Notes under the pieces: generated by a model
The model's database searches: none
Seen by the model: only the letters and a program-made list of their open reading frames with translations
Told to the model about the DNA's origin: nothing
DNA from: Flavobacterium cerinum
GTDB taxonomy: Bacteria > Bacteroidota > Bacteroidia > Flavobacteriales > Flavobacteriaceae
NCBI RefSeq assembly: GCF_024496085.1
Contig: NZ_CP101751.1
Coordinates: 3,100,001-3,164,000, forward strand
Direction of reading: 5' to 3'
Length of the DNA stretch: 64,000 bases
Position numbers and translations under genes: made by a program
In this document: positions 30,950 to 47,974 of the stretch, piece after piece
Position numbering within the stretch: the first letter of the stretch is position 1
Layout: every line of letters begins with the position of its first letter

Positions 30950-31699
30950 TTAGTGAGCATAACTGTTATAGTAGCGACCATTTATTTCCGGTAGGCTTTT
31001 ATCTTTAAACCAACCGGGATGTATCAGTACTTTATAAGTAGTCGATAGTGTATAATCGTCTTTTTTTCTGGATTTTTTAATTTTACCTTTTGAATAGCCG
31101 ATGATAAGATTATCGGCTACATCCCGTCCGATATCAAAATAATCAATACCGTTCTTTTTAAACCACTTTCGGAACGGATTTTCCTCTCCGTTATTATCAG
31201 GACCAATTTCGTATAATTCAAGATAGATATCATGGATTAATCGTATAAGAAAACATCGTTCTTTATATTCTCTACCGATTCTATGGAAATCAAAATCAAC
31301 ATCCGGATGCGTTGTTTCGACTTCTAAATCCAATTCTAAGACCGGAAGTTCTTTTTTACCCAATAACGGCGCCCAAATATTATAACCGACAAATAACGGT
31401 GACCAAAAAAGCTCTTTTATTTCATTTGAATAAGAGTCTTCCAAAATTTGCCATTCTTCTTTTAAAACATAAGGATGCATCTCCTCGGGTAGCATTTTAG
31501 AATTGTACTTATTCGATTGGGATACCAATTCCTGAAAACGCTTAACACCAACAAATTTTTCTTCATTCGTTACATCAATTCCTAATGATTTAGCATACGA
31601 TTTAAAATTTCGGGAAGGCGCCTGAATACAAAGATTCACTAAATCTTCTGTATCCCATAACTTCTCATTGGATTGGACACAAAATCTATATTTGCTCAT
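30950..31699 (-). CDS. soluble protein of unknown function
   Basis: 249 residues, no signal peptide. The N-terminal part is helical (LVNLCIQAPSRNFKSYAKSL); the C-terminal part is mixed and ends KDKSLPEINGRYYNSYAH. No family was recognised. It is the last gene (in reading direction) of the one-strand 31-48 kb block. TATATTTG, a possible -7 box, lies ~70 bases upstream. Confidence 0.6.
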   Translation of the reverse strand: MSKYRFCVQSNEKLWDTEDLVNLCIQAPSRNFKSYAKSLGIDVTNEEKFVGVKRFQELVSQSNKYNSKMLPEEMHPYVLKEEWQILEDSYSNEIKELFWSPLFVGYNIWAPLLGKKELPVLELDLEVETTHPDVDFDFHRIGREYKERCFLIRLIHDIYLELYEIGPDNNGEENPFRKWFKKNGIDYFDIGRDVADNLIIGYSKGKIKKSRKKDDYTLSTTYKVLIHPGWFKDKSLPEINGRYYNSYAH

Positions 31700-31875
31700 G
31701 TTCTTTTGTTATTTGTTTTTAACGTTTAATATCCTTTACAATTTCAGCTTTTTTATTACTGATTACTACAAATATAATAAAAATATTGAAAGAAAAAACT
31801 TACTTTAAAACAACCGTACTTACTCTAAATTTTATAATGTTCCTTTATTAAATCCCTTTAGAACTGTGCTTACCT

Positions 31876-32226
31876 TTATTTATAATAGTCTGTAAAATTT
31901 ACTTCGACTTTTATATAATTTTCATTGGCTTCCAAAATTGAATTTATTTTTAAAAGACATTCCTGGTTATTACCCGCCATTATAAAAGCTAAACCCCAAA
32001 TATCTTTTGAGATTATGAATCCCCCCATTTCAGAAGCGATACTTATCAAAATCTCGTCATTCATCCATAGATCCGTTATGTCTTCGATATTAGGGTTCAG
32101 TTCTGAAATTGCATTTAATAAATCAGATAGAAAAGCTTCATTTTCTGCACCTTCTACAAACTCTATTAAAAGTCTTAAGGAATCATTTGAGGAGCCATAT
32201 TCCGGACGAAACTTGTATTTGTACAT
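31876..32226 (-). CDS. small soluble acidic protein, unknown
   Basis: 116 residues, no signal. Acidic, with FVEGAENEAFLSDLLNAISE and a beta-rich end (YIKVEVNFTDYYK). Unrecognised. Size and charge fit an immunity-type protein, but this is inference only. Confidence 0.55.
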   Translation of the reverse strand: MYKYKFRPEYGSSNDSLRLLIEFVEGAENEAFLSDLLNAISELNPNIEDITDLWMNDEILISIASEMGGFIISKDIWGLAFIMAGNNQECLLKINSILEANENYIKVEVNFTDYYK

Positions 32227-32285
32227 TGTATTTACTTTAAGCTGGTCTTTTAAACTTTTAAACCCTTAATTTCACAAAACCGCAA

Positions 32286-32480
32286 TTATAAGATGGTTGA
32301 ATTGAAGCTGTATTTTTCATCCAGCTCTTCAGTTTTTATTTTGTGCGTTTCTATTAATTCACCGAACTTATTGTAAATGGTAAGCCGGCCAAATTCATTT
32401 TTATATTTAAGTTCAACTTTATGAATTTGATCATTATGTATAACAATTCTTTGAAATTTCTTAAAACTATTGCTATACAT
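32286..32480 (-). CDS. very small basic protein, unknown
   Basis: 64 residues, lysine-rich, mostly beta strands (FGRLTIYNKFGELIETHKIK). The preceding lipoprotein gene stops 2 bases before its start, so the two are probably co-transcribed. Unrecognised. Confidence 0.5.
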   Translation of the reverse strand: MYSNSFKKFQRIVIHNDQIHKVELKYKNEFGRLTIYNKFGELIETHKIKTEELDEKYSFNSTIL

Positions 32481-32482
32481 AA

Positions 32483-33085
32483 TTATGGATTTCTTGGAAT
32501 TTCACTAACTTCTGATTCATATCTCCGTTGAAATAATTCAACCTGATGATCGGTCAAAAGAAAAGTTGAAAGATCATTTCCCCCATTAACTAAATAGAAT
32601 CTTTCATCTGATTTCTTTAGCTTAAGAATTTCGTTTAACTTCTTGAAAAAATTATTTGCCGCAGAATTCCAAAACGTTTCATTATCTAATTCTTCCTCTG
32701 TATAAAGAATTATTTTTTCCCCATTAATACTGATTTCTCTCATTTTTTCAGTATTGTCTGTTTTTTCTACAATCAATGTAATATTTCTTTTTGACAGCAT
32801 TTTAACCAATTGAGGTACAAAATAATCAAAACTGAATTCTGCCAGTTCTTCCGCATCTATTGCCGCAAACTTATTTGTGTTTTCATTGTAAATGTCTAAA
32901 GAATCAATTTTATTAATATCCACATTTTGTTCTGAATATTTAAAAAAATCTTCTTTAATCAATTGACTTTTAAACTCTTTTTCTGTAATATTTAATTTCT
33001 TGGCCTTGATATTACCTCTAATTCCGTTTTCTGTTTTCTTAGAACACGAAACAAATACAAGTATAATAAAAATAATGTTCCTCAT
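32483..33085 (-). CDS. lipoprotein of unknown function
   Basis: 200 residues. Signal MRNIIFIILVFVSC (Cys 14). The mature part is Lys/Glu-rich (KLNITEKEFKSQLIKEDFFK) and helical, ending FQRRYESEVSEIPRNP. No family was recognised. Confidence 0.64.
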   Translation of the reverse strand: MRNIIFIILVFVSCSKKTENGIRGNIKAKKLNITEKEFKSQLIKEDFFKYSEQNVDINKIDSLDIYNENTNKFAAIDAEELAEFSFDYFVPQLVKMLSKRNITLIVEKTDNTEKMREISINGEKIILYTEEELDNETFWNSAANNFFKKLNEILKLKKSDERFYLVNGGNDLSTFLLTDHQVELFQRRYESEVSEIPRNP

Positions 33086-33442
33086 AAATTAGGTTTTAGC
33101 ATTTAGGCATACCATTCTGTAGCTTTACGCAGTAACAACATTGATAGTACCTTTTATATTTTATTCTTAACGTTACAATATTATAAAATCTAACTTTCCG
33201 TTATTCATTTTATCCCTTTGGGCAATACAAGTATATCAAGGAATTGCAATGTATTTTGAATGATCAACTTCAGTTAAATGAAGATGCATTCTTTTCTTTA
33301 AATAGGTCTCATTCTCTATTTTAATTTTTCTTATGCTGCTTTTTGCCATTTCTCTTTTAAATAAACGAAGTGTTTTCCCAAAAAACGAACCGTTATACCA
33401 AACCCTTGTTACTGATTAGCTGTTTATTTTAAACTAACTATT
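33086..33442. other. 357-base gap, no gene
   Basis: AT-rich, no frame with coding character. CCGTTATACC near 33391 and AACGTTACAA near 33166 resemble the terminal boxes of nearby cassette spacers, suggesting a decayed cassette. Confidence 0.3.
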
Positions 33443-34006
33443 CTAATGTCTCCACTTTCCTTTAAATTTACCATTGTAAAATATTCCGTCCCCTTTTGCT
33501 ACAATGTTGCAATTCGGAATTTCGCTTGCTATTTTTAGAAGACCTTCAAATGTATAATTGTTTTCCCATATGTCTATAATAATGGTTTCCAGGTTTTCTA
33601 ATACCGTTAATTTTCTCAGACCTTCTTCCGTTATTCCTGTTTCGTGAATTTGCAGGTCCAGTAAATTTTCCAATTCGGCTAAGTCTGAAATACAAGCGTT
33701 TGTAAGTTGCGGATTATCTTTTAATCTAAGGCTTTTTAATTGTTTTAGTTTCTTCAGATAGTGCATACCGGCGTTTGTAATTTCAGTTTCCTGTAAATTC
33801 AAATTTTCAATTCCACTGCAATTTGATAGATGAAGTAATCCTTCGTCATTAAGATTAGTACCGGAAAAACTAGCCGATTTCAGATTCGGAAACCGGTTCA
33901 GATAAGATAACTCATTGAAATTACTGAGTGGTTCTTCCCCTTTAAGCAAAAAATGTTCACTGTTTATATCGTAGTAGTGATTCCCTATTTTTATTTCACT
34001 TTCCAT
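33443..34006 (-). CDS. leucine-rich-repeat protein
   Basis: 187 residues, no signal. Five LRR units with the pattern LxxLxxLxLxxTxIT, for example SGIENLNLQETEITNAGMHY, LKSLRLKDNPQLTNACISDL and LLDLQIHETGITEEGLRKL. Cytoplasmic LRR proteins of this ribonuclease-inhibitor-like type bind proteins. The partner is unknown, and an immunity role would be consistent with its neighbours. Confidence 0.78.
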   Translation of the reverse strand: MESEIKIGNHYYDINSEHFLLKGEEPLSNFNELSYLNRFPNLKSASFSGTNLNDEGLLHLSNCSGIENLNLQETEITNAGMHYLKKLKQLKSLRLKDNPQLTNACISDLAELENLLDLQIHETGITEEGLRKLTVLENLETIIIDIWENNYTFEGLLKIASEIPNCNIVAKGDGIFYNGKFKGKWRH

Positions 34007-34061
34007 TTAATGATCATTTATCTTATACCTTATAGGTTGTTATTTCATGGATTTAAATTTG

Positions 34062-34113
34062 TGCTGTCAGGACTGAATTCAAATATAGAAAAATGCCTTA
34101 AAGCTCCCATTAG
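34062..34113 (-). repeat. cassette spacer core with TAnnTTTG box
   Basis: On the minus strand this reads GCTTTAAGGCATTTTTCTAT then ATTTGAATTCAGTCCTGAC. It matches the centre of the spacers at 41, 43, 45 and 47 kb. The TATATTTG box is at 34080-34087. Confidence 0.5.
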
Positions 34114-34544
34114 GATCCAAATAACCATCTAAAAATGGTATAAAAACCAATTACGGCTCCTATAACTACTATTGCAATTAACGATAAGCATCCATATTTA
34201 AACATTTTGTCCTTAAAGCTTTCTACATGAGGTGTTGTATCTTCTTTAATTTCATTGCGCGCTTCAGAAACCGGTTTTATGTAGGCAATCATTTCCCCGC
34301 TCATCCACTCCTTTCTCCATTCAAAATCAATATAGTTTTTTTCGGTGTTATTGATAATCGTTTCGGAATCCCTTGATGCTTTTAAGAGTTCAGCAGCAAA
34401 CAATTCAAAGCCTTCTTTATTTGCTTTAATATGCATTTCATCTTCATCTTCACCTTCACCATAATATAAGCCAAATGAAGCTTTATCTTCAGCATTATTA
34501 TTCGTTAAACTTTGAATGATTTTGTCTAATTCTTCTTTTTCCAT
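34110..34544 (-). CDS. tail-anchored membrane protein, unknown
   Basis: 144 residues. An acidic cytoplasmic domain (FGLYYGEGEDEDEMHIKAN) is followed by a single C-terminal helix (YGCLSLIAIVVIGAVIGFYT) near residues 117-140, so it should be tail-anchored. Unrecognised. Confidence 0.62.
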   Translation of the reverse strand: MEKEELDKIIQSLTNNNAEDKASFGLYYGEGEDEDEMHIKANKEGFELFAAELLKASRDSETIINNTEKNYIDFEWRKEWMSGEMIAYIKPVSEARNEIKEDTTPHVESFKDKMFKYGCLSLIAIVVIGAVIGFYTIFRWLFGS

Positions 34545-34659
34545 TTAGTTTGTTCAAGTTGCTTTTATGCATAATTTAAATAATCGACAGCTATCATTTC
34601 GAGAACCATTATAGATTCAAAACCAATCTTTAAATCCATGTTTCGTTGCCGACATTATT

Positions 34660-35046
34660 TTATTCGTAACGTATTCCGAAGCTATAACGTTTCTTTTTTG
34701 GGTTTTTAATGATATAGGTCGCTTCTACGATGGCAGTAGATGTACAAACTTCATCAGATGTTAATCTATATATTAAAATAATACTATCTTTTTTTATTTC
34801 TAAATCCCCGGAATAGGTTCCGCAGGCATTGGCATCAATTTTTTTTGATATATAAATAATCTTGTCAATGTATTTGGCTTTTACTTTTGAGTTTAAATTA
34901 GCTTTAAGTTTATCGTAGTTCACATCGTCAAGTTCGGCAAGAAATTCAGAGTTAAAATATATTAGATTGGGATTTACTTCTTTTTTCTTTTCTGCACAAG
35001 AAAAAGTAAGAATGCTCATAATTAAAAAGCAATATGTTTTTTTCAT
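34660..35046 (-). CDS. small lipoprotein, unknown
   Basis: 128 residues. Signal MKKTYCFLIMSILTFSC (Cys 17). Two further Cys (NACGTYSGD, DEVCTSTA) may form a disulfide. No family was recognised. Confidence 0.64.
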   Translation of the reverse strand: MKKTYCFLIMSILTFSCAEKKKEVNPNLIYFNSEFLAELDDVNYDKLKANLNSKVKAKYIDKIIYISKKIDANACGTYSGDLEIKKDSIILIYRLTSDEVCTSTAIVEATYIIKNPKKKRYSFGIRYE

Positions 35047-35059
35047 TAGAATTTATCGT

Positions 35060-35155
35060 TTTTTTTGCTCCCCTGACCTTATGCAAAGACAGAACTAAAA
35101 TATTCAAAAGTTAGCTTCATTATAATCTAAAAATTTCAGGAAAACCGCTGTTAGT
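35060..35155 (-). repeat. attC-like cassette spacer
   Basis: On the minus strand it starts ACTAACAGCGGTTTTCCTGA and ends GCATAAGGTCAGGGGAGC. CCTGA pairs with TCAGG near the two ends. The 5' box matches the spacers at 45 and 47 kb; the centre is diverged. Confidence 0.45.
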
Positions 35156-35166
35156 TGTAGTCTTTT

Positions 35167-35679
35167 TTAATCACTCCCTTTTATTTGAAGAAATACAATT
35201 TTTGTTTCATCAATTTCAAAAATAATATCGATTCCTGTTAATCTATAGAAGCTATTTTCAATGAGTTTTAATTCATAAATATCCGATGCGCTTCCTGCAA
35301 ATTCTTTCTCCATATAATTAATGAAGTGATCAATTGCATTTTTGATGCTAAAACCTAAATCTTTAGTCAATTCATTTTCAGTATAATCAGCAGTAAATCT
35401 TCGGGTTAAACCGGATTTTAATTCCGTTTCCAGTTTATTTTTCCAGTCATTACATTTAACTATTTCAAGTTTCCAATCATATGGATATACACCGAAAAGT
35501 TCGTATGAATTATTTTGAATTGCACTTTCAATATTTCCGGCTGAAAAGTTAAACGCAAACAGTTTATACTTCATTCCAACCACAGAATAAGATTTTATTA
35601 ATTCCAGCGCATTCAGATACCCATTCAGATAGGTTAATTTTGTTTGTAAAATTTGATCTTTTAGTTCTTCGTTTAACAT
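35167..35679 (-). CDS. soluble protein of unknown function
   Basis: 170 residues, no signal. Mainly helical N-terminus (LNEELKDQILQTKLTYLNGY) and a beta-rich end (IIFEIDETKIVFLQIKGSD). No family was recognised. Confidence 0.58.
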   Translation of the reverse strand: MLNEELKDQILQTKLTYLNGYLNALELIKSYSVVGMKYKLFAFNFSAGNIESAIQNNSYELFGVYPYDWKLEIVKCNDWKNKLETELKSGLTRRFTADYTENELTKDLGFSIKNAIDHFINYMEKEFAGSASDIYELKLIENSFYRLTGIDIIFEIDETKIVFLQIKGSD

Positions 35680-35712
35680 GCAATGCTATTTATAATCTTT
35701 CGGTTAAAATTA

Positions 35713-35744
35713 CAGCTAACGCTCTTTCAGGAGTTGTTTGAGGT
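35713..35744 (-). repeat. cassette boundary with CGTTAGC box
   Basis: The minus strand reads ACTCCTGAAAGAGCGTTAGC. A GAGCGTTAGC end also occurs at 37.2 kb, and CGTTAGC ends occur at 44.7 and 47.4 kb. In each case the box precedes a new gene. Confidence 0.4.
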
Positions 35745-35752
35745 TATAAAAA

Positions 35753-36307
35753 TTAGTTTTTTATTTTACCATTTTCAAAATTTTGAACATCAATCCGATT
35801 GCCGTCTATGTCATATGAATTCAGGCTTCCGGTTCCTTTTTTTAAAGTGCCTTTTTCTAAGGGATTTCCCTTTCCGTCATAACAGGAAAAAATTTCCATT
35901 AAATTTCCGTCTTCATAAAGCCTTTCGGTGTAGAGATTACCATTAGAATGATACCAGATCCACTTCCCGATCATTTTACCGGATGCTAAATTTCCTACTC
36001 CTTCTTTATTTCCGTTATCATGATAAAAAAGCCATTGCCCATCTTGTTTTCCCTCTTTAAAATTTCCGATTTGCCGCAACGTTTCATTTTCATGATAAAT
36101 TTTCCAAATACCGGTCTCTTTATCATCTTTAAATGAACCTTTTTGGTACATTTTTCCATTTTGATGATAATATTTCCATTGCCCGTTTTTTAATTGATCA
36201 ACCATTTTTCCTTTCATTTTTAATTCTCCCGTTTCATAGAACGTTTCTGATGATTTACAGGAAATAAATAAAATGAGTGTCAAAAAGGATAGTAAATAGT
36301 TACGCAT
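35753..36307 (-). CDS. YwqK-type MORN-like repeat lipoprotein
   Basis: I take the ATG at 36307 because it begins a lipoprotein signal (MRNYLLSFLTLILFISC). 184 residues. The mature part consists of repeated units with the pattern GxWxxYHxNGxxxxxGxF (NGQWKYYHQNGKMYQKGSF, TGIWKIYHENETLRQIGNF), five in all, as in YwqK-family antitoxin/immunity proteins. In Bacteroidota such proteins are frequent and usually exported; the partner is not known. Confidence 0.8.
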   Translation of the reverse strand: MRNYLLSFLTLILFISCKSSETFYETGELKMKGKMVDQLKNGQWKYYHQNGKMYQKGSFKDDKETGIWKIYHENETLRQIGNFKEGKQDGQWLFYHDNGNKEGVGNLASGKMIGKWIWYHSNGNLYTERLYEDGNLMEIFSCYDGKGNPLEKGTLKKGTGSLNSYDIDGNRIDVQNFENGKIKN

Positions 36308-36342
36308 TGATTTTATATATTGTTTGATCATTATTACAAGCC

Positions 36343-36720
36343 TTATATTGCCATACAGCTTCCGGCTATCACTTTTAATTGATTGTCGACTATTTTCCAA
36401 ACTCGCAGATAACGAAAATTTCCTTCAAATTTTTGCCCCGACATTGTTCCTGAAATCCTGGAAGACAGAGTAACTACAACGTTTTCTCCGATTTCTTTTA
36501 TAGCTTCTATTGCTGACGTGATTTCTTCTAAAACCAGGTTTCCGGATTTGTGTGTTTCTAAATCCATTTCCTTGGTAATTACTTCGCCGCCCGGAAGAAC
36601 AAAAAGCAAATCATCATGAAGTAATTGCTCCAGGATCTCGACATCGCTTTTCTTCATCGCTTCGAGGAGTCGGTTTTCAATTTCCAGTATTTTTTGTTGG
36701 TTAAGAGTTGTTGAATTCAT
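36343..36720 (-). CDS. NTF2-like (DUF4440/SnoaL-type) protein
   Basis: Start taken at 36720 (MNSTTLNQQKILEIENRL). 125 residues. The fold pattern is that of an NTF2-like cone: an N-terminal helix, LLHDDLLFVLPGGEVITKEM, then alternating strands ending FRYLRVWKIVDNQLKVIAGS. Members act as small-molecule binding or immunity proteins; no catalytic role is evident here. Confidence 0.78.
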   Translation of the reverse strand: MNSTTLNQQKILEIENRLLEAMKKSDVEILEQLLHDDLLFVLPGGEVITKEMDLETHKSGNLVLEEITSAIEAIKEIGENVVVTLSSRISGTMSGQKFEGNFRYLRVWKIVDNQLKVIAGSCMAI

Positions 36721-36730
36721 AAGTAAATTT

Positions 36731-37186
36731 TTAGCCGTTTTTTTTAATTTCGTCCGTATATTCACTAATAAAATAATTGTCTCTTTTAATTACATATCCA
36801 TTAATGATATAATCACCTTCACATTGAGAGAATGCATAAATTTTATCATTTTGCTTTTTTATGGTAATAAATTCAGCCCATTTTTCACGTTCAAACCTAT
36901 AATCATCACTAATTTTCTCTAGCTTTTTTTCGACTGTGCTCTTTAATGTCAAGAATTCATTTTCAGATAATTCAAATTTTAAATCACTCTCTTTTATATT
37001 TGAAATTCCCCAATGACCTTCTGTTTTTCCGTGATCCTGCTTCCGTAAATAAATTTCGCAACTCGGACACCTAGCTTTGTAAGTAATTCTGTCAGCTTGA
37101 GGTTTTCCGTCCTTATCTCTCATTCTTGCCCGACGAATTATTTGTTTTTCTTCCAATTGATAATTACAAATTATACAAATATCCAT
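36731..37186 (-). CDS. small zinc-ribbon-like protein, unknown
   Basis: 151 residues. Two Cys pairs, CIIC near residues 4-7 and CPSC near 39-42, should bind one zinc. The rest is mixed alpha/beta (YAFSQCEGDYIINGYVIKRD). It ends about 10 bases before the NTF2-like gene, so they may share a transcript. Confidence 0.6.
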   Translation of the reverse strand: MDICIICNYQLEEKQIIRRARMRDKDGKPQADRITYKARCPSCEIYLRKQDHGKTEGHWGISNIKESDLKFELSENEFLTLKSTVEKKLEKISDDYRFEREKWAEFITIKKQNDKIYAFSQCEGDYIINGYVIKRDNYFISEYTDEIKKNG

Positions 37187-37207
37187 ATCATTTATTTTTA
37201 AATATTG

Positions 37208-37229
37208 GCTAACGCTCCGTTACAAGCTC
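37208..37229 (-). repeat. cassette boundary with CGTTAGC box
   Basis: The minus strand reads CTTGTAACGGAGCGTTAGCC, a short inverted repeat (TAACG/CGTTA) and a CGTTAGC end directly before the next gene. ACTTGTAACGGCGCTAC near 42.27 kb is a relative. Confidence 0.4.
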
Positions 37230-37234
37230 TTTTC

Positions 37235-37720
37235 TTAGTTATTAATATTGGTAAGTTGTCTAAGCCTGTCCGGCATTATATGCCCGGTTGCTATTAAGAT
37301 TCCATGATGATTAATACATAATAGCCAATCATATTTCTTTGAGACAATATAAAGTTCGTCTATATAGGATGATTGTTCAGTAATTATCTGAATAGGCTTG
37401 ATCTGCCCTTGATAAAACCAAAATTTGTTCATCTCATTTACTGTCTCGTTAACGAAAAACCAAACACTCTCCTTACTGTCTATAAGTTTATCCAAATACA
37501 CATAAGGATATTGTTCAATCGAAATAGAATATGTTTCAAGTTTAAAATAGTTCCAAAGCCAAACAGGTCTCGATTTATGGTGCGTCAGTTTACAAAATGT
37601 CTGGTAAATTTTGTCCTCAACCTCTTGCCATTCATTTAGTCCTAAAGACCGGAATTGATTCTCCTTAAACTCAAAGTCTTTACTTATTGTTTCAATTTCT
37701 TTCCGTAAATCAGTCCACAT
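37235..37720 (-). CDS. soluble protein of unknown function
   Basis: Start taken at 37720 (MWTDLRKEIETISKDFEF). 161 residues, Trp/Tyr-rich, with SRPVWLWNYFKLETYSISIE and a C-terminal KYDWLLCINHHGILIATG. No family was recognised; the plan resembles small immunity-type proteins. Confidence 0.58.
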   Translation of the reverse strand: MWTDLRKEIETISKDFEFKENQFRSLGLNEWQEVEDKIYQTFCKLTHHKSRPVWLWNYFKLETYSISIEQYPYVYLDKLIDSKESVWFFVNETVNEMNKFWFYQGQIKPIQIITEQSSYIDELYIVSKKYDWLLCINHHGILIATGHIMPDRLRQLTNINN

Positions 37721-37783
37721 AATTTTTATTTTTAACAGAAAAAAATAAACCAACAATTACATAAATCATTGTTAGCAGTAGTT

Positions 37784-38512: not shown

Positions 38513-38514
38513 GA

Positions 38515-40990: not shown

Positions 40991-41030
40991 TATTTATGAA
41001 ATAGTTATTGTCTTGATAAATTTGCTACTT

Positions 41031-41139
41031 ACGTCTCTTTAGCTTTAAGAAGTTGTTTCTTTATCCCTAACCTTTCCATCACGACAGAAATCAAATATAG
41101 AAAAATACATTCAATCTCAATTTCTTAAAACCGCTGTCG
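41031..41139 (-). repeat. attC-like cassette spacer; 5' arm is coding
   Basis: The minus-strand 5' arm ACAGCGGTTTTAAGAAATTG pairs with the 3' arm CAACTTCTTAAAGC. The 5' arm encodes the last residues of the upstream protein (TAVLRN and its TGA stop). The centre has TATATTTG at 41092-41099, and the end is GACGTAAGTAGC. Confidence 0.6.
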
Positions 41140-41500
41140 TTTTTATTTTTTTATATTCCTTTTCCGTATTAATCCAATGCTTTTTACACATCCAGCTATT
41201 TATAAAATAAGAGAATTCAATACTTAATTTTCTAAAATAATTTCTTTTTTCTATCGATTTTACAATGCTTTCTTCCAGCCACTTTTCATCAAATCCTGCC
41301 CATTCACCTGCTATGTTTGATAAATTAGCTTGTAAAACCGGAAAAACTTCATATTTGTTGATATTTTTTATTTCTTCCAGACTAAACGGACTTTCTATCA
41401 TTTTTAAAGCAATTCGTTTAAAATCTTTTTGTTCAAGTTCGGTATCAAGATAGAACTCCGATAGCGCTATCCATATTGGTTTTCGTTCGCTTATATTCAT
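41117..41500 (-). CDS. soluble protein of unknown function
   Basis: Start taken at 41500 (MNISERKPIWIALSEFYL), since the six codons upstream belong to the preceding spacer (AACGTGATG). 127 residues, helical with Trp-rich ends. Its last six residues and stop are written by the 5' arm of the next spacer, so the C-terminus probably changed when the cassette formed. Unrecognised. Confidence 0.6.
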   Translation of the reverse strand: MNISERKPIWIALSEFYLDTELEQKDFKRIALKMIESPFSLEEIKNINKYEVFPVLQANLSNIAGEWAGFDEKWLEESIVKSIEKRNYFRKLSIEFSYFINSWMCKKHWINTEKEYKKIKTTAVLRN

Positions 41501-41521
41501 CACGTTATAAATGTACACTAT

Positions 41522-41612
41522 GTTCGCGGCTTTGTGTAGTAGCTCTAATTTAAGAAAAAGTAATCCAAAGCACTTGATATTCTCTTAAAAAAAACCAGCT
41601 ATTGTATATTGA
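41522..41612 (-). repeat. diverged attC-like spacer
   Basis: The minus strand starts AATAGCTGGTTTTTTTTAAG and ends CACAAAGCCGCGAACATAG. AGCTGGTTT and AAAGCCGC sit where other spacers have GCGGTTTT and AAAGCCGG. Confidence 0.4.
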
Positions 41613-41617
41613 TATAG

Positions 41618-42169
41618 TTAGTTACAGTTTCTTTTATTATCGGGGAACTCTTTTTCATTCCATTTTTCAAATACTGTATTTCCGGCGGAATCGTCACTTT
41701 TATACGAACTCCATTTAAAACTACACTTTGAGCATTCATAAATTATGTAATTATAATAGCCGTCACAGCCGAAGCCTACTTTATCCAAATGCGTTACATC
41801 AGGGATTTGATTGTATTTATATTTTATTTCGCAATCGCAAACAGCCTCTTTAAGGTTGTCTTTTTCAAGATGAAATTCTATTTCTTCTGCAATTTTTGTT
41901 AGTTGGCCGGTCAATAACATTGGATTGACTAAACTATAGAATTTCCCCATAAACGGTAATTCCGAAATCTCATTTTTGTACGATTTTATTAATTTATAGA
42001 GTTCACTAAAATTGAAATTTTCGTTTTCTGCTTCAATTTGAACTAACTTTTTAAAATCATCTAAAATCTCATTATATAATTCCGATTGTTTTAATCCGTT
42101 GTCAATTTTATTAAAACTGACCCAATCTTTTTGAATTAAGTGCAACAAAAATGCTTTTATTTTATCCAT
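41618..42169 (-). CDS. soluble protein with possible zinc site, unknown
   Basis: 183 residues, no signal. Helical N-terminal ~110 residues, then a Cys-bearing C-terminus (AVCDCEIKYKY, GFGCDGYYNYIIYECSKCSF) with two Cys-x-Cys/Cys-x2-Cys sets that could hold zinc. Unrecognised. Confidence 0.6.
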   Translation of the reverse strand: MDKIKAFLLHLIQKDWVSFNKIDNGLKQSELYNEILDDFKKLVQIEAENENFNFSELYKLIKSYKNEISELPFMGKFYSLVNPMLLTGQLTKIAEEIEFHLEKDNLKEAVCDCEIKYKYNQIPDVTHLDKVGFGCDGYYNYIIYECSKCSFKWSSYKSDDSAGNTVFEKWNEKEFPDNKRNCN

Positions 42170-42300
42170 AAGTCTTTAAAATAGTAGGATTACCATCCTG
42201 TAACTTTATAACTGTTGAAACTGAATTAGCCCAGTTGAATTAAAACGAAAATAGGAAAAAAGTAGCGCCGTTACAAGTCATTCCCCAATCTTTGATTTCT

Positions 42301-42381
42301 TTATCTATGTTCCAATACCAATAAAATTGTTAACGACAAAACCAGTCCTAAAGCGATATACGGAATGAGTGCATATTTCAT
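42301..42381 (-). CDS. possible 26-residue membrane microprotein
   Basis: A short frame coding MKYALIPYIALGLVLSLTIL then LVLEHR lies in the 265-base gap between two genes. It is one transmembrane helix with a charged end. ACAGCAA is a poor ribosome site. It could be chance, but a Met-Lys start followed by a clean helix and stop is suggestive. Confidence 0.3.
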   Translation of the reverse strand: MKYALIPYIALGLVLSLTILLVLEHR

Positions 42382-42434
42382 TTGCTGTGACTTGTTGCCA
42401 AATAACAATTTTGCAAAACTGCTGTTGGCCGTAA

Positions 42435-42875
42435 TTAGTATGTTTTTACAGGAATACCTTTTTTTGACATTTCAAATCGTTCTTCAATAAAATAATAAAT
42501 GGCATCTAATTCATAAGTGGTTAAATTTATAAAAGAAGGCATTAGTCCCCATCCTTCTTCTCTTAAATTAACTGCAATACTATCACCAAGCTTGAACATT
42601 TGGTGTGGATTTCGGGTGTATTTATATAGCCAGTTTTTTTTCCTTCTTTTTGTTATGCCTCCTAATGCAGGTGCGGTCATCACTTTATCCATTCCGATAT
42701 AATGACAAGAAGCGCAATTTTTAATGAAGAGTTTTTCACCTTTTTCAAAAGAATCATTTTGAACAACATTGGCTTTTCTAAGTGGTTTTAATTTGTCGTC
42801 ATTCGATTTTATAAAATGTGTTGTTCCCATAGCAGAGACAATAACTAACATAAAAAATATTATGCTTTTCTTCAT
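42435..42875 (-). CDS. class I cytochrome c
   Basis: 146 residues with a signal (MKKSIIFFMLVIVSAMGTTH). The haem motif CASCH is in LFIKNCASCHYIGMDKVMTA, and the axial Met is probably in GWGLMPSFINLTTYELDAIY. It is a single-haem periplasmic electron carrier. A cytochrome inside an array of unknown genes is unexpected. No oxidase lies nearby. Confidence 0.88.
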   Translation of the reverse strand: MKKSIIFFMLVIVSAMGTTHFIKSNDDKLKPLRKANVVQNDSFEKGEKLFIKNCASCHYIGMDKVMTAPALGGITKRRKKNWLYKYTRNPHQMFKLGDSIAVNLREEGWGLMPSFINLTTYELDAIYYFIEERFEMSKKGIPVKTY

Positions 42876-42949
42876 GATTCTATTTTGTAGATTTTATCTT
42901 ACAGCTTACATTCTGTTATTTTATGGTTTTGGATATTTTTGTACTCGAA

Positions 42950-43045
42950 CTATTCCGTTAGGACTGAAGTCAAATATATAAAATGGCCTTTTTAATATTG
43001 CTTAAAATCTCAATTTTACAAAACCACTGTTAACTGCTATCCTAT
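42950..43045 (-). repeat. attC-like cassette spacer with TAnnTTTG box
   Basis: The minus strand starts GTTAACAGTGGTTTTGTAAA and continues with TATATATTTGACTTCAGTCC then TAACGGAATAG. The TATATTTG box is at 42972-42979. The 3' arm is less clear than in other copies (AATGTAAGCTG near 42.9 kb). Confidence 0.5.
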
Positions 43046-43054
43046 TTCTTTCAA

Positions 43055-43405
43055 TCATATATTAAACCTATAATTTATCATTCCAGTTTTGTCAAAAGTG
43101 GGTATAAGAATTTTGGTTTCTTTTCCATTTAACTCAACTAACTTCCACTCATTTGAATTTATTAAATTCTCAAATAAGCTCTCTTTCTTTAAAAGTATAC
43201 TTTCTTTAGTTTGATCAATTTCGGAAGTATTTAGATAAAATTCCGTTAATTCAGATGAGAATTTTATGTATTCAATTATTTGGTAGGAAATTGAATTTGT
43301 TGGTTTTAATAATAAATTAAAAAGACCACAAAGGTTTGGAAAATCTCTTTCTGCATTAGTGATATTTCCAATTAAAATGTTTCCGTAGTATAATTTCGAT
43401 GTCAT
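43055..43405 (-). CDS. small soluble protein, unknown
   Basis: 116 residues, no signal. Contains FSSELTEFYLNTSEIDQTKE and a beta-rich end (ETKILIPTFDKTGMINYRFN). Unrecognised. Confidence 0.55.
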   Translation of the reverse strand: MTSKLYYGNILIGNITNAERDFPNLCGLFNLLLKPTNSISYQIIEYIKFSSELTEFYLNTSEIDQTKESILLKKESLFENLINSNEWKLVELNGKETKILIPTFDKTGMINYRFNI

Positions 43406-43439
43406 ATCAGATGTCGTTTTGGGAGCTTTCTGCTACCGT

Positions 43440-43558
43440 TTGGAGTTTAATGCAGTGCTGGATTTCAGAAAAAAGGTCAACCTGCACTGACCTAGAATAG
43501 AAGTACAAAACTCCAAGTTTGTAAGTCACCCCGCCAGACGTAAAACATGTGCTAACAG
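43440..43558 (-). repeat. second class of cassette spacer
   Basis: The minus strand begins GTTAGCACATGTTTTACGTC then TGGCGGG and ends CTCCAAACGGTAGCAG. The first 27 bases are almost identical to the spacer at 46.6 kb. CTTGGAGTTT near the start pairs with AAACTCCAA near the end. Confidence 0.55.
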
Positions 43559-43566
43559 TGATATTT

Positions 43567-44706
43567 TTATTTCTTAGTCGGTTTTGATGTCACTGTCGGT
43601 TTAACTTTTCCCTCAAGTAGGTCAATTACAGATTTCTTCAAGTCATCATATTTTAAATTGTCGTTAAAACCGATATTGAAAGTTGAATGTTCACCGTCTT
43701 TGCTCATACAGAGAAGATATTTGACTCCTCCTTGTTCCACTGAAATAGGCGAATATTCTGTCTGTATTCTAAATTCAATTTTTTCATCTGGATTTACTAC
43801 ATAAAACAAGTGTTTGTTGTAAATATTGCTTTTATCTCCTTCTTCATACCTCTCGTATGCCTGAATTAACTTGTCTTTCCACTTAAATTGATCATAACAA
43901 AACATATCTTCTAAATTGTCTTTTAGTAATCCTTTTTTATGAGCATCATATAATTTGTCTTTGTATGGCTTTGCCTTGTCATACTCTTTTCTGTGATAGT
44001 AGATTTGAATAAGTTTTGCGTAAGAATGATAGTCCGTCGGGTCTAATTGAATAAGTTCAACAAATGCCGGTTCTGCTTTATCATAGTTTCCTTTTAAAGA
44101 TTCAAGTAGCCCAATGTTAAACAAGACATTTATATATGAGTTTGATTTTTTAGAGATTTTTGATTTTGCCGTGTAAAATGCTTCTAATGCTTTGTCACTC
44201 TGTTTTAAGTCAGAATAAATTTGTGCTATCATTGAATATGGTCTGTCAGGACATTCATTTTGTTCAGTTGCCTTTTTATAGCTTTCAAGTGCCAGGTCTT
44301 GCTTTTCAAGTTGGTAGTAGGAATCTCCAAGTCCGCTATAAAACTCTGCATCGTCTGGCTTTAGATTTATTGCTGTTTGAAAACACTTTATAGCATCGTT
44401 GTATTTTCCCATATAGTTCAATGTCGAAGCCTTTATGTAATGTGGTGCTGGGTCTTTACTGTTTTTGTTTATTGACAAGTCCATAAACTTGATGCAATTG
44501 TTGTCATCTTCTTTCATATAGTAAGCAAGTCCAATATAATACAGGGATCCTGCGGAATAGTCCTTAGATTTTGAGGCGTGTTGTTCAATTATCTTGTCAT
44601 ACTGTTTGTTTTCTGATAAGGCCTTTAACTCATCGGTGATTTTGTCTTGAGCAAAAATTGTCAAGCTATAAATTATCAAAATGAATGTTGTTAGTATTTT
44701 GTTCAT
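43567..44706 (-). CDS. exported TPR protein
   Basis: Start taken at 44706 because it begins a signal peptide (MNKILTTFILIIYSLTIFAQ). The frame upstream to 44793 runs through the REP palindrome. About 379 residues. TPR units are visible from ~residue 30 to 270, including IKCFQTAINLKPDDAEFYSG, LGDSYYQLEKQDLALESYKK and GNYDKAEPAFVELIQLDPTD. A C-terminal ~90-residue domain follows (KIEFRIQTEYSPISVEQGGV). Probably a periplasmic protein-interaction scaffold. Confidence 0.82.
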   Translation of the reverse strand: MNKILTTFILIIYSLTIFAQDKITDELKALSENKQYDKIIEQHASKSKDYSAGSLYYIGLAYYMKEDDNNCIKFMDLSINKNSKDPAPHYIKASTLNYMGKYNDAIKCFQTAINLKPDDAEFYSGLGDSYYQLEKQDLALESYKKATEQNECPDRPYSMIAQIYSDLKQSDKALEAFYTAKSKISKKSNSYINVLFNIGLLESLKGNYDKAEPAFVELIQLDPTDYHSYAKLIQIYYHRKEYDKAKPYKDKLYDAHKKGLLKDNLEDMFCYDQFKWKDKLIQAYERYEEGDKSNIYNKHLFYVVNPDEKIEFRIQTEYSPISVEQGGVKYLLCMSKDGEHSTFNIGFNDNLKYDDLKKSVIDLLEGKVKPTVTSKPTKK

Positions 44707-44724
44707 TACTGTCGTTTTTAGAAT

Positions 44725-44750
44725 TGGTGCTAACGGTTTGGGGGGTTGCT
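44725..44750 (-). repeat. cassette boundary next to the half REP element
   Basis: The minus strand reads CAACCCCCCAAACCGTTAGC and ends just before the start of the TPR gene. CGTTAGC is the same terminal box seen at 35.7, 37.2 and 47.4 kb. Confidence 0.4.
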
Positions 44751-44755
44751 TTCGT

Positions 44756-44780
44756 TGACACGAGCGTCTCGCTCGTGTCA
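44756..44780. repeat. single-arm REP palindrome
   Basis: TGACACGAGCG-TCT-CGCTCGTGTCA is a perfect 11-base palindrome, one half of the REPIN-like element. It sits inside a cassette spacer, between a stop and the CGTTAGC box. Confidence 0.85.
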
Positions 44781-44796
44781 GTAGTACTTTCATTTA

Positions 44797-45231
44797 TTAT
44801 TTTAGTTTCCCATAATCAATTGGATTTTCTTCCCACCATTTTTCAGCGTCATTCCAAAGTTCTATAATTTCGTTTGCAATTTTTTTATAATTATCTGTGA
44901 ATAAAGATTCTTTTCCATAATCAAACCAGTAATCTATATTTTGTTTATCGCTTCCTAACCGCATTCTATATACCACATCATGTGCAGTTACTTTGTTTTT
45001 TGGTATTTCTTTCCCCCAATGTGTAGTTATTCCGTTTGGATCACAGTTCGCTATTTCAACTACAAATTTTGTGTCATACAAACTATGTTGGAAAGTTAAT
45101 AGATTGATCCTGTCTGATTGTTGCCTTCTAAAATGTGGAAGAGAACCTTTAAAACCTTTTTCACGTAAAAATGGTATAAAGATTTCTTTAAGTGCAATAT
45201 CGATTTTATTTCTGTGTTCTTTTCTTTCCAT
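44797..45231 (-). CDS. DUF4304-like protein
   Basis: 144 residues, no signal. The pattern fits DUF4304: KEIFIPFLREKGFKGSLPHF, then RRQQSDRINLLTFQHSLYD, KFVVEIANCDPNG and a Trp-rich end. Proteins of this family are small, often near toxin or immunity genes, and have no known activity. Confidence 0.7.
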   Translation of the reverse strand: MERKEHRNKIDIALKEIFIPFLREKGFKGSLPHFRRQQSDRINLLTFQHSLYDTKFVVEIANCDPNGITTHWGKEIPKNKVTAHDVVYRMRLGSDKQNIDYWFDYGKESLFTDNYKKIANEIIELWNDAEKWWEENPIDYGKLK

Positions 45232-45251
45232 TTTGTTAGTTTAAATAACGT

Positions 45252-45372
45252 ATAACGTCCCGCCGGCTTTAATAAATTGCGCTAACCATTCCGTTAGGAC
45301 TGAAGTCAAATATAAAAAACTAGCTTTAAATTTTGCCTAAAACCCCGATTACTTAAAAACCGCTGTTAGTGC
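45252..45372 (-). repeat. attC-like cassette spacer containing the upstream stop codon
   Basis: The minus strand starts CACTAACAGCGGTTTTTAAG; its TAA (45366-45368) is the stop of the gene before it. The end is TTATTAAAGCCGGCGGGACG then TTA. TTTAA and TTAAAG pair in the arms, and CCGGC..GACGTTA pairs with TAACAGCGG with a bulge. The TATATTTG box is at 45307-45314. Confidence 0.6.
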
Positions 45373-45845
45373 TTCGTAGTGATAAAATCCAGGGTCTTAA
45401 AAATCAAATTACTTATGTCAGGTTTTTCAAAAACAAACTCAATTTTCCATTTTTTAGACAAAACATTGTCATAGTTGTTTAGTTGAGCTTTAATGTATTT
45501 AGTATTAGGAAGAATTTCGATCTCTTTAGGGTTGAGATTTAATACTTCGAAACGCAGAAAGACTTTGTCTTTAAAATTTTTAAGTGGAATTTTTATCGTA
45601 AATTTTCCGTTATTGTCTGTCATTACAAAATTTCCTTTCCCTTTCTCCAATACAACAACATTCGATAACGGTTCTAAATCCGATACTATTCCGCTTATTT
45701 CTACATGTTCAAAAATAGAATTTTCAACTGATTTTTTTTTGATTCCATCATCAGTTTCTTGAGAATAAAAACTAACCGTAAAAAAAAGTAATTTGAAAAG
45801 GATTATTTTCTTTACCAATATTTTAGATTTTCTTGAAAAAATCAT
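45366..45845 (-). CDS. exported carboxypeptidase-regulatory-like domain protein
   Basis: Start taken at 45845 (MIFSRKSKILVKKIILFKLL). 159 residues with a signal peptide ending near SFYSQE. Residues ~45-115 form a CarboxypepD_reg-like beta-sandwich (VSDLEPLSNVVVLEKGKGNF, VMTDNNGKFTIKIPL). Such modules usually head TonB-dependent receptors; here it is free-standing. Its stop is supplied by the next spacer. Confidence 0.72.
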   Translation of the reverse strand: MIFSRKSKILVKKIILFKLLFFTVSFYSQETDDGIKKKSVENSIFEHVEISGIVSDLEPLSNVVVLEKGKGNFVMTDNNGKFTIKIPLKNFKDKVFLRFEVLNLNPKEIEILPNTKYIKAQLNNYDNVLSKKWKIEFVFEKPDISNLIFKTLDFITTKH

Positions 45846-45918
45846 CGCTGTCAATTTTTATGATAATCCTGATTAAGGTTTATGATTAATTTTATTACTG
45901 TTCAGTTCTCTATTTCTG

Positions 45919-46461
45919 CTACGTTTTGTCTACTTGCGCAACTAAACTCATGCCCGCGTCAGCAGAGCAGTTTTTTCCTTTGTGGACTATGTTCCCTTTA
46001 TTATCATAAAGGTTTGTATAATTGTCATTATAGTTCCGACTTGTCACGCCTAGTTTGTCAAGTAAGAAATTTGATTTTTGCCTTATCGAAGTCCAGGTCT
46101 TGTGATTGTCAATAAACTCCCAATCCCAAATTTCTGTCGGAATTTCGTCAACCTCTTTCTTGAACATTAGCAGTTCGTTTTTTAGTGAGACCTCAATTAG
46201 TCCCATTCTGAAAACTGTCTCGAAACAAACTGGCGTAAAAGCATGTTCAAGCTCTTCATATAACTCAGCCAATGGGTCTATCAATATCGGAGCCATTTTG
46301 TCTAACTTCTCTGTGTCGTATGTGTATAAAATAATTGAATTGACAATGTTTGTATAATAAAAGTCAACGTGTTTGTCATATTCAATTTCTTCCTTGTCGG
46401 CTGATGATTTTTCTGACGATGTAGGTTTACTACCAAATATTGATTTCAAATTTATCCTCAT
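45919..46461 (-). CDS. soluble protein of unknown function
   Basis: 180 residues, no signal. Helical (YTNIVNSIILYTYDTEKLDK, PLAELYEELEHAFTPVCFET), Trp-rich centre. No clear spacer separates it from the downstream gene (64 bases), so the pair may be one cassette. Unrecognised. Confidence 0.58.
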   Translation of the reverse strand: MRINLKSIFGSKPTSSEKSSADKEEIEYDKHVDFYYTNIVNSIILYTYDTEKLDKMAPILIDPLAELYEELEHAFTPVCFETVFRMGLIEVSLKNELLMFKKEVDEIPTEIWDWEFIDNHKTWTSIRQKSNFLLDKLGVTSRNYNDNYTNLYDNKGNIVHKGKNCSADAGMSLVAQVDKT

Positions 46462-46481
46462 TTCTCTCGGTTGTCAAAATT

Positions 46482-46617
46482 GCCCACAACCGTTTTAGGG
46501 CTTTGTGTTTGGCAGGTTTCGAAGTAAAAAGTTTCAATTTATTACTAAAGTTTATTAAAAGCTAAAAAAACCAAGTTTGCACATCAGCCCGCCAGACGCA
46601 AAACATGTGTTAGTGGC
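46482..46617 (-). repeat. second class of cassette spacer
   Basis: The minus strand begins GCCACTAACACATGTTTTGC then GTCTGGCGGG and ends GCCCTAAAACGGTTGTGGGC. GCCAC and GTGGGC, and TCTGGCGGG and CCTGCCAAA, pair imperfectly. It shares its start with the spacer at 43.5 kb. Confidence 0.55.
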
Positions 46618-46626
46618 TGTTTTTAA

Positions 46627-47385
46627 TCAATAATATTCGTAATTTCTATAATGAAATTCCTGAGTTCGCCTTAAATAAAAATTGTCTGTGATTAAACTGT
46701 CAAGTTCGTCAACAATTTCATTTAGTTTTTTGGTTCGCTCAACTTTTTCTTTTCCTAATGTTTCAAAATCAATTTTACTTTCGTCTTCTATTAGTTGTCT
46801 TAAAGATTTTATATAAAGTTCCTTTTGCTTATTTATATCATACGTTTTATCAAATTTATTTTTCTCCTTAGGGAAAAGGTAAACTGAATACTCAGCGTAT
46901 CCTAAAATTCTAATCTGTTGGTGTCCGAAGTATGTTCCTCCGTATTGAAAATGCCCGAATAAAGAGTTTATTCTTGAATATATTTCAATAAGGTTCTTTC
47001 TTTGTTGAGCATACTTTGCGATACCGTTCTTTTGTTTTAAAAAGTATGCATATAAAGCATAGTAAACATCTTGTCCTTGTTCGCTTCCAAAGTCAACACT
47101 TTTTACAAAACAATAATAAAGCTTGTCAGGATGTTCCGGGAATTCTTGAAATAATTCAGGATGTTCGTCTACAATTTTATTGAAGTCTGATTTAGTAAAT
47201 CTGAGAGTATCACTAATTTCGGTAGCAATTAAAATGGTGTCTTGTTGTGTATAATATTGTGAATTATCAATCTTTACAGTCTTAGTGTCTGCATTAGCAA
47301 TAGTAACCTTGTCAACTTGTTTATGTTGATTATTACAGCTTAAAAGTCCGATTGTAATTGTCAGTATGTAGATTATATGTTTCAA
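46627..47385 (-). CDS. lipoprotein of unknown function
   Basis: I take the TTG at 47385, the first codon of a lipoprotein signal (LKHIIYILTITIGLLSC, Cys 17). The longer frame to 47454 reads through the upstream spacer. About 252 residues, helical and Lys/Glu-rich (KQKELYIKSLRQLIEDESK). Unrecognised. Confidence 0.62.
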   Translation of the reverse strand: MKHIIYILTITIGLLSCNNQHKQVDKVTIANADTKTVKIDNSQYYTQQDTILIATEISDTLRFTKSDFNKIVDEHPELFQEFPEHPDKLYYCFVKSVDFGSEQGQDVYYALYAYFLKQKNGIAKYAQQRKNLIEIYSRINSLFGHFQYGGTYFGHQQIRILGYAEYSVYLFPKEKNKFDKTYDINKQKELYIKSLRQLIEDESKIDFETLGKEKVERTKKLNEIVDELDSLITDNFYLRRTQEFHYRNYEYY

Positions 47386-47400
47386 GGTCGTCTTAAAATA

Positions 47401-47539
47401 GCCGCTAACGTCATGCCGGCTTTGAGAAGTTGGAGATTTTTGTTCCCGATCCATTCCGTTAGAACTGAAGCCAAATATATAAAAATGCCTTTAAATTTTG
47501 ACTATACCTCAAATTTCTCAAAACCGCTGATAGCGGCAG
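47401..47539 (-). repeat. attC-like cassette spacer, best-preserved copy
   Basis: The minus strand starts GCCGCTATCAGCGGTTTTGA then GAAATT, and ends CAACTTCTCAAAGCCGGCAT then GACGTTAGCGGC. GCCGCTA pairs with TAGCGGC at the outer ends. GGTTTTGAGAA pairs with TTCTCAAAGCC inside. The TATATTTG box is at 47472-47479. Confidence 0.65.
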
Positions 47540-47545
47540 TATTTT

Positions 47546-47974
47546 TTATCCGTACATTGTTGTATCATTAAAATTTTCTCCGTCAAATGATTGAGCAATT
47601 AGATAGTGATTTCCAAACATTCCGTTTTCAGAATAGAAAAAGTCAACAGAAGTGTCAGATAAAAATGTTATGCTATTTAACGTCAAGTTTTCGCTAAATG
47701 CTTGTTCATCTAACTCGGGTTCGTCATCTTCTTCATTTCTCCAATTGTCGTTATAGCTTTCTAAATACTCTTGAATAATCACTTTTTTTGCCTTTGACTC
47801 GTAAAGTTCAAATTGTCCAATTATTTTATTTACCAAGTTTATTGTCTTCTCTAATTCAACGTCATCTGGGTCTAGTGAAATTTCAATAGATTGTCCATTT
47901 ACGACAAATTTCGTTTGGAAAGCGTTTTCATTATCAGGGTTTATCTTTAGATTTTCTTTTGTAATCTTATTCAT
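47546..47974 (-). CDS. soluble protein of unknown function
   Basis: Start taken at 47974 (MNKITKENLKINPDNENAF). 142 residues, acidic. Contains VVNGQSIEISLDPDDVELEK and an acidic linker NWRNEEDDEPELDEQAFSEN, then SVDFFYSENGMFGNHYLIAQ. The end, SFDGENFNDTTMYG, looks immunity-like. Unrecognised. It is the first gene of the array in the direction of reading. Confidence 0.6.
   Translation of the reverse strand: MNKITKENLKINPDNENAFQTKFVVNGQSIEISLDPDDVELEKTINLVNKIIGQFELYESKAKKVIIQEYLESYNDNWRNEEDDEPELDEQAFSENLTLNSITFLSDTSVDFFYSENGMFGNHYLIAQSFDGENFNDTTMYG

Follow-up and report, generated by a model that had tools for sequence, protein, structure and literature searches.

A row of small genes in the genome of Flavobacterium cerinum (one contig, 4.08 Mb), all of them encoded on the same strand, raises the question whether it was assembled as an array of integron cassettes and, if so, by which recombinase. 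The stretch analyzed here comprises 64,000 nucleotides (positions 3100001–3164000 of NZ_CP101751.1) and is referred to as the window in the following. The original prediction, made from the letters alone, described about 27 consecutive and mostly unrelated minus-strand genes with many related spacers, and interpreted them as an array of cassettes from Bacteroidota that lacks an integrase and has diverged attC-like sites, possibly belonging to a different recombination system. We found that the cassette array is real and integron-like and that the copy in the window is worn. Very probably it represents an eroded array resembling the clusters of attC sites lacking integrases (CALIN), and derives from an integron-type system native to the Flavobacteriaceae, whose recombinase is devoid of the additional domain (I2) of the integron integrase IntI.

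The gene row itself was as described: the minus strand contains 27 open reading frames (ORFs) between 30950 and 48013, coding for 64–275 amino acids and in one case for 408. The genes are mostly single, small and mutually unrelated. Overlapping ORFs on the plus strand (60–114 amino acids) are taken as spurious.

Structured attC Sites and Cassette Chains in Related Genomes

Naive folding of the window's spacers gave no clear attC shape, and the sites were recognizable only via relatives. With a 119-nt spacer of the window as query, taken from the site at 45254–45367 (Table 1), arrays were found in relatives, the matches at E ≤ 0.01 being distributed over 18 of 61 Flavobacterium genomes including F. 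cerinum itself. An iterated nhmmer search starting from 19 sequences led to 118 sites, mostly 0.3–1.5 kb apart. They share the layout N6-AAC-AG-CGGTTT...GGGG, variable loop, CCCC...AAGCCG-spacer-GTT-N6 and measure about 125 nt. The outer R stem combines GTT/AAC with some six bases specific to the cassette; between it and an inner helix lies an unpaired spacer that is lopsided, with about 2 nt on one side and 6–7 on the other. In the 17-bp inner helix 93.2% of the cells are paired (50 sites, 49 of them distinct), and 222 cells show double changes compared to 64.5 ± 6.6 after shuffling, a number reached by none of 500 shuffles. Covariation of the helix amounts to 0.692 versus 0.175 in shuffled alignments, and shifting the partner strand abolishes the pairing. 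One A.C mismatch within the helix is conserved in 49 of the 50 sites, and a T.G wobble in 38. The sites of the relatives possess the paired R boxes AAC..GTT and the inner stem with conserved mispairing that characterize the attC hairpin. Spacers devoid of structure-specific conservation, which according to the original prediction would speak against a cassette array, are not what was found, as the covariation in the sites is strong.

In integrons, the bases following GTT at the start of a cassette and those preceding AAC at its end come from one circle and are expected to be complementary. Of 95 pairs of neighboring sites 86 matched in six of six positions and three more in five; the remaining six include the two pairs from the window, which matched in three and two positions only. 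The mean match was 5.73 compared to 2.87 in permuted pairs, with 3.31 as the highest value of 2000 permutations. Complementary cassette ends were also found in the window, one pair being perfect and two matching in five of six positions. Together with the structured sites of the relatives, these three cassettes support the cassette array with diverged attC-like sites that had been proposed.

An alignment-free detector, which searches for 9-bp GTT/AAC cassette ends joined by 50–210-nt spacers with an inner stem, recognized chains of at least three cassettes in 28 of 61 sequences and in 11 of 20 from other genera. Within 81 loci (both detector sets minus the window, plus the plasmid locus L160 described below) 39 carried a chain of at least three cassettes and 29 one of at least four, fractions that are no population estimate, since the loci were picked for carrying a site or an integrase. 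Among 405 block shuffles two reached three cassettes and none reached four. The longest chains comprise 22 (locus L104), 20 (L125) and 18 (L141) cassettes.

Eroded Sites and Cassettes in the Window

For the search within F. cerinum a covariance model, R1, was built from 50 sites of the relatives with the window sequence excluded. This model finds five sites at the 26 junctions of the array (E 4.8e-15 to 4e-5) and one further site in the window at 24663; an additional array junction gave a doubtful match (Table 1). To test for false matches, R1 was applied to 285,518 bases upstream of the relatives' integrases, where it found no site at E ≤ 0.001. Related spacers thus exist, and their number had been overstated, as they account for a minority of the junctions (5 of 26). 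A 58-nt repeat block occurs at six places in the window, two of which (38407–38464 and 34045–34102) are junctions without R1 match, and at some other R1-negative junctions half-sites can be recognized by eye. Apart from the best-kept one at 47407, the sites of the array are devoid of GTT, of one arm or of part of the loop.

Two eroded cassettes could be delimited in the array. In the first, GCCACT in front of AAC in the R'' flank of the site at 46489–46611 pairs in five of six positions with AGCGGC behind GTT of the preceding site. In the second, ACAACT in front of AAC in the R'' of the half-site at 35055–35152 pairs equally well with AGCTGT behind GTT beyond the gene 35167–35679. For four other cassette starts examined in the array no mating end was found, and the chain detector recognized no chain left in the array. 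The annotated start at 47454 falls within the site 47407–47531, so that the real gene start must lie further in, as holds for several annotated starts.

The original prediction had overlooked both the site at 24663–24786 on the plus strand and a pair of similar tRNA genes, one on either side of the region. The former opens an intact lone cassette, the ends of which are complementary over 10 bp and the gene of which encodes 187 amino acids with a lipoprotein-like start. The distal attC of this cassette (from 25434) continues into a CGAGCG-rich palindrome. Palindromes resembling repetitive extragenic palindromes, CACGAGCG, recur at 44759–44784, 48045–48102 and about 25450–25520, within or beside cassette sites.

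In the whole genome R1 finds 11 sites at E ≤ 1. Five are those of the array, a further three lie at 3.564–3.567 Mb, and the other three are singles, one of which is the site at 24663. The well-kept ones are those at 47407, 24663 and 3565748. The last belongs to a second small cluster of three plus-strand sites at 3564346–3567385 (locus L052, 8347–11386), in which one site is well kept (88.4 bits).

Table 1. Coordinates of the cassette array, its sites and cassettes, and further features of the window.
Feature	Position	Strand	Evidence and remarks
Array of 27 same-strand genes	30950..48013	-	ORFs, Pfam
attC-like site, best kept in array	47407..47531	-	R1 E 4.8e-15, 77.3 bits; R' GTTAGCGGC, inner block with TATATTTG
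attC-like site, second type	46489..46611	-	R1 E 6.3e-6
attC-like site, loop shortened	45254..45367	-	R1 E 3e-10
Eroded attC-like site, diverged right half	42907..43031	-	R1 E 4e-5
Eroded attC-like site, GTT changed to GTA	41030..41138	-	R1 E 5.8e-8
Left half of attC-like site	35055..35152	-	R1 E 0.44; nhmmer E 7.2e-4
Isolated inner block of site family, contains TATGTTTG	38407..38464	-	Repeat family D1, motif
Isolated inner block of site family, contains TATATTTG	34045..34102	-	Repeat family D1, motif
Eroded single-gene cassette, gene within 46627–47454	46609..47409	-	Ends match 5/6 (47409 to 46611)
Eroded single-gene cassette, gene 35167–35679	35150..35720	-	Ends match 5/6 (35720 to 35152)
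Well-kept attC-like site, outside array, opposite strand	24663..24786	+	R1 E 7.2e-12
Intact lone cassette	24784..25436	+	GTTATGCGAT ... ATCGCATAAC; AAC at 25434; gene 24845–25408
tRNA gene (Val by likeness), core-genome edge	49207..49281	-	Rfam; relatives
Second copy of same tRNA gene, far edge	27550..27624	-	Rfam
MORN_2 gene	35753..36400	-	Pfam 1.8e-16; tblastn 4e-28 to L160 14598–15053
Cytochrome c gene	42435..42875	-	Pfam PF00034 2.3e-10

A Tyrosine Recombinase without I2 Heads the Intact Arrays

Intact arrays in the relatives are headed by a gene encoding a tyrosine recombinase, mostly of 350–400 amino acids. We collected 66 loci with homologues, corresponding to 65 genes as L059 and L110 overlap, and 51 of these loci offered at least 3 kb of downstream sequence. 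A chain of at least three cassettes follows the recombinase in 29 of the 51. In 20 of these 29 loci the first GTT lies 40–154 bp past the stop codon of the recombinase gene, and 153 of the 156 sites in these 20 chains are oriented as the recombinase gene. The segment preceding the first GTT, often with an inverted repeat and in many cases ending with TATATACAA or TATATACTA (24 segments), likely represents attI, which would place attI beside the integrase in the relatives; the window holds neither. Since the upstream stretch of the 66 loci was short (median 2.3 kb) and the lack of chains therein was weak evidence, 15.5–16 kb of upstream sequence were examined in 18 chain-bearing genomes; neither a chain of three (0 of 18) nor an R1 site (E ≤ 0.001) was found there. 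With chains downstream and none upstream, the recombinase gene is located at one end of the array and is transcribed toward the cassettes. A version of 584–590 amino acids with a long extra N-terminal part occurs in the loci L058, L106, L107 and L108, in some cases adjoining arrays, and the locus L087 (genome G139) contains four like tyrosine recombinases of 320 amino acids within 18 kb (ORFs at 333, 3397, 7262 and 10891).

The recombinase resembles IntI and XerA. The distance between its motifs GKGxKDR and HxLRHS is 56–57 amino acids, compared to 98 in 13 canonical IntI and 62–65 in Xer-like rows, and the profile alignment has a gap at about 180–238, where the additional domain I2 of about 41 residues is missing. 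The additional domain by which an integron integrase is recognized is hence absent, and no match to the profile TIGR02249 above its cut-off was obtained in any of 13 array-bearing genomes. Assignment to XerC or XerD fails likewise, as three array recombinases scored 177–196 bits against NCBIfam cut-offs of 330–335. F. cerinum's own XerD passes its cut-off with 338, and its XerC-like protein with 295.5 stays below. A tree of 44 rows allows the I2-less clade to be either a sister of IntI or of independent origin, the long branches of L003 and L159 making the deep joins unsafe. The predicted structure of the recombinase is of middling confidence (predicted local distance difference test score 79.7, predicted template modelling score 0.47), and the fold comparison was made on residues 77–356; for the extra N-terminal domain the only match is DUF5710, below threshold. 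The notion of a different recombination system is partly borne out, since the recombinase found beside the intact arrays differs from a standard IntI. In its logic the intact I2-less system of the relatives is an integron, although the criterion usually applied to the integrase would not classify it as one.

It could be argued that the array stems from an ordinary integron, the cassettes of which were assembled by a canonical IntI that carried the additional domain and has since been lost, and that the I2-less recombinases nearby are bystanders. Within the phylum, 84 of 296 genomes encode a canonical IntI above the cut-off, so that a donation is possible, and the I2-less protein itself has TIGR02249 as one of its best matches. 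Yet none of 86 canonical IntI rows derived from the window's family, of which at least 20 genomes were sampled, all 13 array-bearing genomes were devoid of a canonical IntI, and it is the I2-less gene that heads the arrays at the close distance given above, with the other side empty in all 18 genomes examined. We regard this explanation as very unlikely. From position, orientation and exclusion we infer that the I2-less recombinase would be the catalyst of the system. In the proposed mechanism, it would recognize attC in its folded form, only one strand being used, would cut between G and TT, and would insert cassettes at attI just past its own stop codon; in the window's lineage the recombinase would have been lost, with decay of the sites afterwards.

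Distribution of the System and Proposed Loss of the Recombinase

Homologues of the recombinase are encoded in 83 of 150 Flavobacterium genomes (E ≤ 1e-45) and, at the family level, in 30 of 70 (E ≤ 1e-60), and sites at E ≤ 1e-10 are present in 48 of 61 genomes of the genus. As at most 57 candidate sites were scored per genome, the numbers for G009 (55) and G030 (57) are floors. Genomes with recombinase (31) have a median of seven sites, those without (30) a median of two (p 5.6e-4), and ten or more sites were counted in 14 genomes with and in three without recombinase.

Outside the genus, a plasmid of Chryseobacterium sp. SNU WT5 (L160, NZ_CP041688.1) encodes the recombinase together with genes resembling cassettes; it has five R1 sites (E ≤ 5e-7), and a group II intron lies among these elements. 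The plasmid has no perfect chain, but three or four of its cassettes can be linked when the chaining is relaxed. With recombinase and cassettes borne on a plasmid, the system may be mobile. On the same plasmid a repeat starting with GTTGGGAAAAATCGCCC, located at about 13120–13280, 15195–15350 and from 20645, follows the integrase and recurs in the array; it is possibly a duplicated attI or another type of site.

In F. cerinum itself no recombinase homologue was detected at E ≤ 1e-45. Matches of the genome to the integron integrase profile were considered as a possible integrase remnant and rejected, as they proved to be XerD, the XerC-like protein and distant recombinases; the closest ones compared, XerD and the XerC-like protein, share 29% and 27% identity. 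The predicted lack of an integrase was thus supported by the searches of the entire genome. With five sites at E ≤ 4e-5, according to the model made here, and no integrase, the window contains what is called CALIN, for which at least two attC sites are demanded. Loss of the recombinase followed by decay of the sites is the simplest reading, and a transplanted block of cassettes would look alike.

An array that is still active, with XerC/XerD or some other recombinase encoded elsewhere in the genome acting on its sites in trans, would account for the few well-kept sites and for the sites retained in recombinase-less genomes. However, the remaining sites of the array have the defects described above and no chain is left, which makes such an activity highly unlikely.

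Several observations weigh against an eroded array of an I2-less system. No chain of three is found in 22 of the 51 loci with homologue; these chainless homologues include L126–L130 (47–50% identity) and L086 of G080 (75%), and L086 has no R1 site. Ten of the 39 chains comprise exactly three cassettes, a length that shuffles can reach. The comparison of site numbers ignores kinship, and many sites occur without a recombinase homologue, at the threshold applied to the genus, in G055 (24) and G013 (14); such site-rich genomes fit a loss of the recombinase but also the action of other recombinases. In the window 20 of the 26 junctions gave no R1 match, so that many of its genes are cassettes by position only, and for just three of the 27 genes a relative was present in the fetched loci, in one case loci that had been fetched using that very gene. 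The integrase adjoins nadC in G009 and G011; the nadC locus of F. cerinum has neither integrase nor site, so that the loss of the recombinase in the window's lineage is putative.

A Putative Promoter Box in the Sites and the Genes of the Array

The sequence TAnnTTTG, described in excerpts of PMC9723704 as the -7 box of flavobacterial promoters, is present in 72 of 240 sites when the cassette strand is read, compared to four sites for the opposite strand and a shuffle average of 13.8. It is concentrated in the site type of G009 and G011 (48 of 51 sites, L043–L049), which is also that of the window. All six copies of the window's repeat block keep the box, two of them with the remainder of the site gone; as these copies were found by likeness, the retention is suggestive only. 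In the few sites inspected by eye, no TTG was seen to precede the box at a distance of about 20 nt. In some sites TAnnTTTG may be a promoter that was retained after recombination had stopped.

Pfam matches at E ≤ 0.05 were obtained for 12 of the 27 array proteins, mostly to domains of unknown function; 15 remained without. Nine are above the cut-off (MORN_2, DUF4440, DUF6756, DUF6678, DUF7079, cytochrome c, TPR, DUF4304 and DUF2262) and three below (LRR, DUF6584 and CarbopepD_reg_2). A relative of the MORN_2 protein (41% identity over 153 amino acids) is encoded between two R1 sites on the Chryseobacterium plasmid.

Rfam at gathering threshold recognized only the two tRNA genes in the window. 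The two copies are identical in the gene, clearly alike around it, and flank a stretch of 21.6 kb including the array. Among the genomes sampled, those closest by the bit score of a core gene are G009 (87% identity), G080 (86%) and G011 (82%), and G009 and G011 possess large arrays of the window's site type. The matching core flank contains a single tRNA-Val in G009, G080, G011 and G061, and in G033 a tRNA-Val was not found there. The matching stretch is free of R1 sites in all five relatives, and a conserved location of the array was rejected for these genomes. The gene order conserved in relatives that had been named in advance as an argument against cassettes was accordingly not seen.

The small orphan genes, the promoter box in the best-kept piece of the spacers and the flanking tRNA copies could also be expected of an immobile gene island or a polyimmunity-type locus with repeated intergenic promoters, the likeness to attC being coincidental. 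This is extremely unlikely in view of R1 matches down to E 5e-15, complementary cassette ends and a covarying helix, which oppose a coincidental likeness; moreover, PADLOC gave no match for the 10 of 27 array proteins examined, and the Pfam matches include no family named for immunity.

Beyond the array, the window encodes at 19489–22887 a protein of 1132 amino acids, in which RCC1-like repeats occur together with numerous nearly identical copies of the repeat TETACDSYTWA.

Significance and Comparison with Known Systems

Beyond the window itself, we consider it probable that the Flavobacteriaceae harbor a widespread second integron lineage, whose recombinase either dispenses with I2 or has never possessed it and recognizes attC by another route, and in one lineage of which attC doubles as promoter of the next cassette. 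This alternative recognition might use the A.C mismatch, the lopsided spacer or the extra N-terminal domain. According to the title of a paper from 2001, I2 is reportedly necessary for activity. In excerpts of PMC4792948 I2 is described as the integrases' solution for handling folded attC, surveys recognize IntI by I2 (PMC9668308, PMC2426708), and IntegronFinder identifies IntI through the IntI-specific domain (PMC9668308). Bacteroidota are listed among the integron-bearing phyla (PMC8618304, PMC9668308); for Bacteroidetes proper, the available text on IntegronFinder 2.0 gives one complete integron, in Salinibacter ruber M1, and only In0 from an earlier survey (PMC9024848). In the open-access literature, preprints being outside the scope, no paper on such Flavobacterium integrons was among the matches listed. 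If the proposal is true, finders requiring the I2 profile would miss these integrases, and IntI searches would have passed over an extensive pool of cassettes in a family that is common in the environment. Natural arrays of up to 22 cassettes under an I2-less recombinase make the I2 requirement directly testable and suggest a second way of recombining folded DNA. The arrays also suggest what at least some recombinases without IntI-specific domain do.

Sedentary chromosomal integrons of the Vibrio superintegron type with their IntI are among the closest known systems. Both share short head-to-tail cassettes on one strand, structured attC sites with GTT crossover, complementary cassette ends and an attI-like place adjoining a tyrosine recombinase gene. 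In contrast to the Vibrio-type IntI, the Flavobacterium recombinase lacks the additional domain and has an extra N-terminal domain; moreover, the attC spacer is lopsided and the recombinase gene runs toward the array, not away from it. As in CALIN, genes of one strand are accompanied by several attC-like sites in the window, and the genome yielded no integrase; the window differs in that the family of its sites has a recombinase other than standard IntI and in that most junctions are eroded. Xer proteins resolve chromosome dimers. Unlike XerA and the integron-like simple tyrosine recombinases (PDB 5hxy, 2a3v; excerpts of PMC8138268), the Flavobacterium protein heads cassette arrays. The mispairing kept in the covarying helix is reminiscent of the bases that are extrahelical in classical attC, as presented in excerpts of PMC4792948. 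A similar arrangement is found in the Treponema integrons, for which the excerpted text of PMC3607928 describes an integrase transcribed toward attI and cassettes as well as integron loss in one lineage; the integrase there is called intI, whereas the Flavobacterium protein remains under the IntI cut-off.

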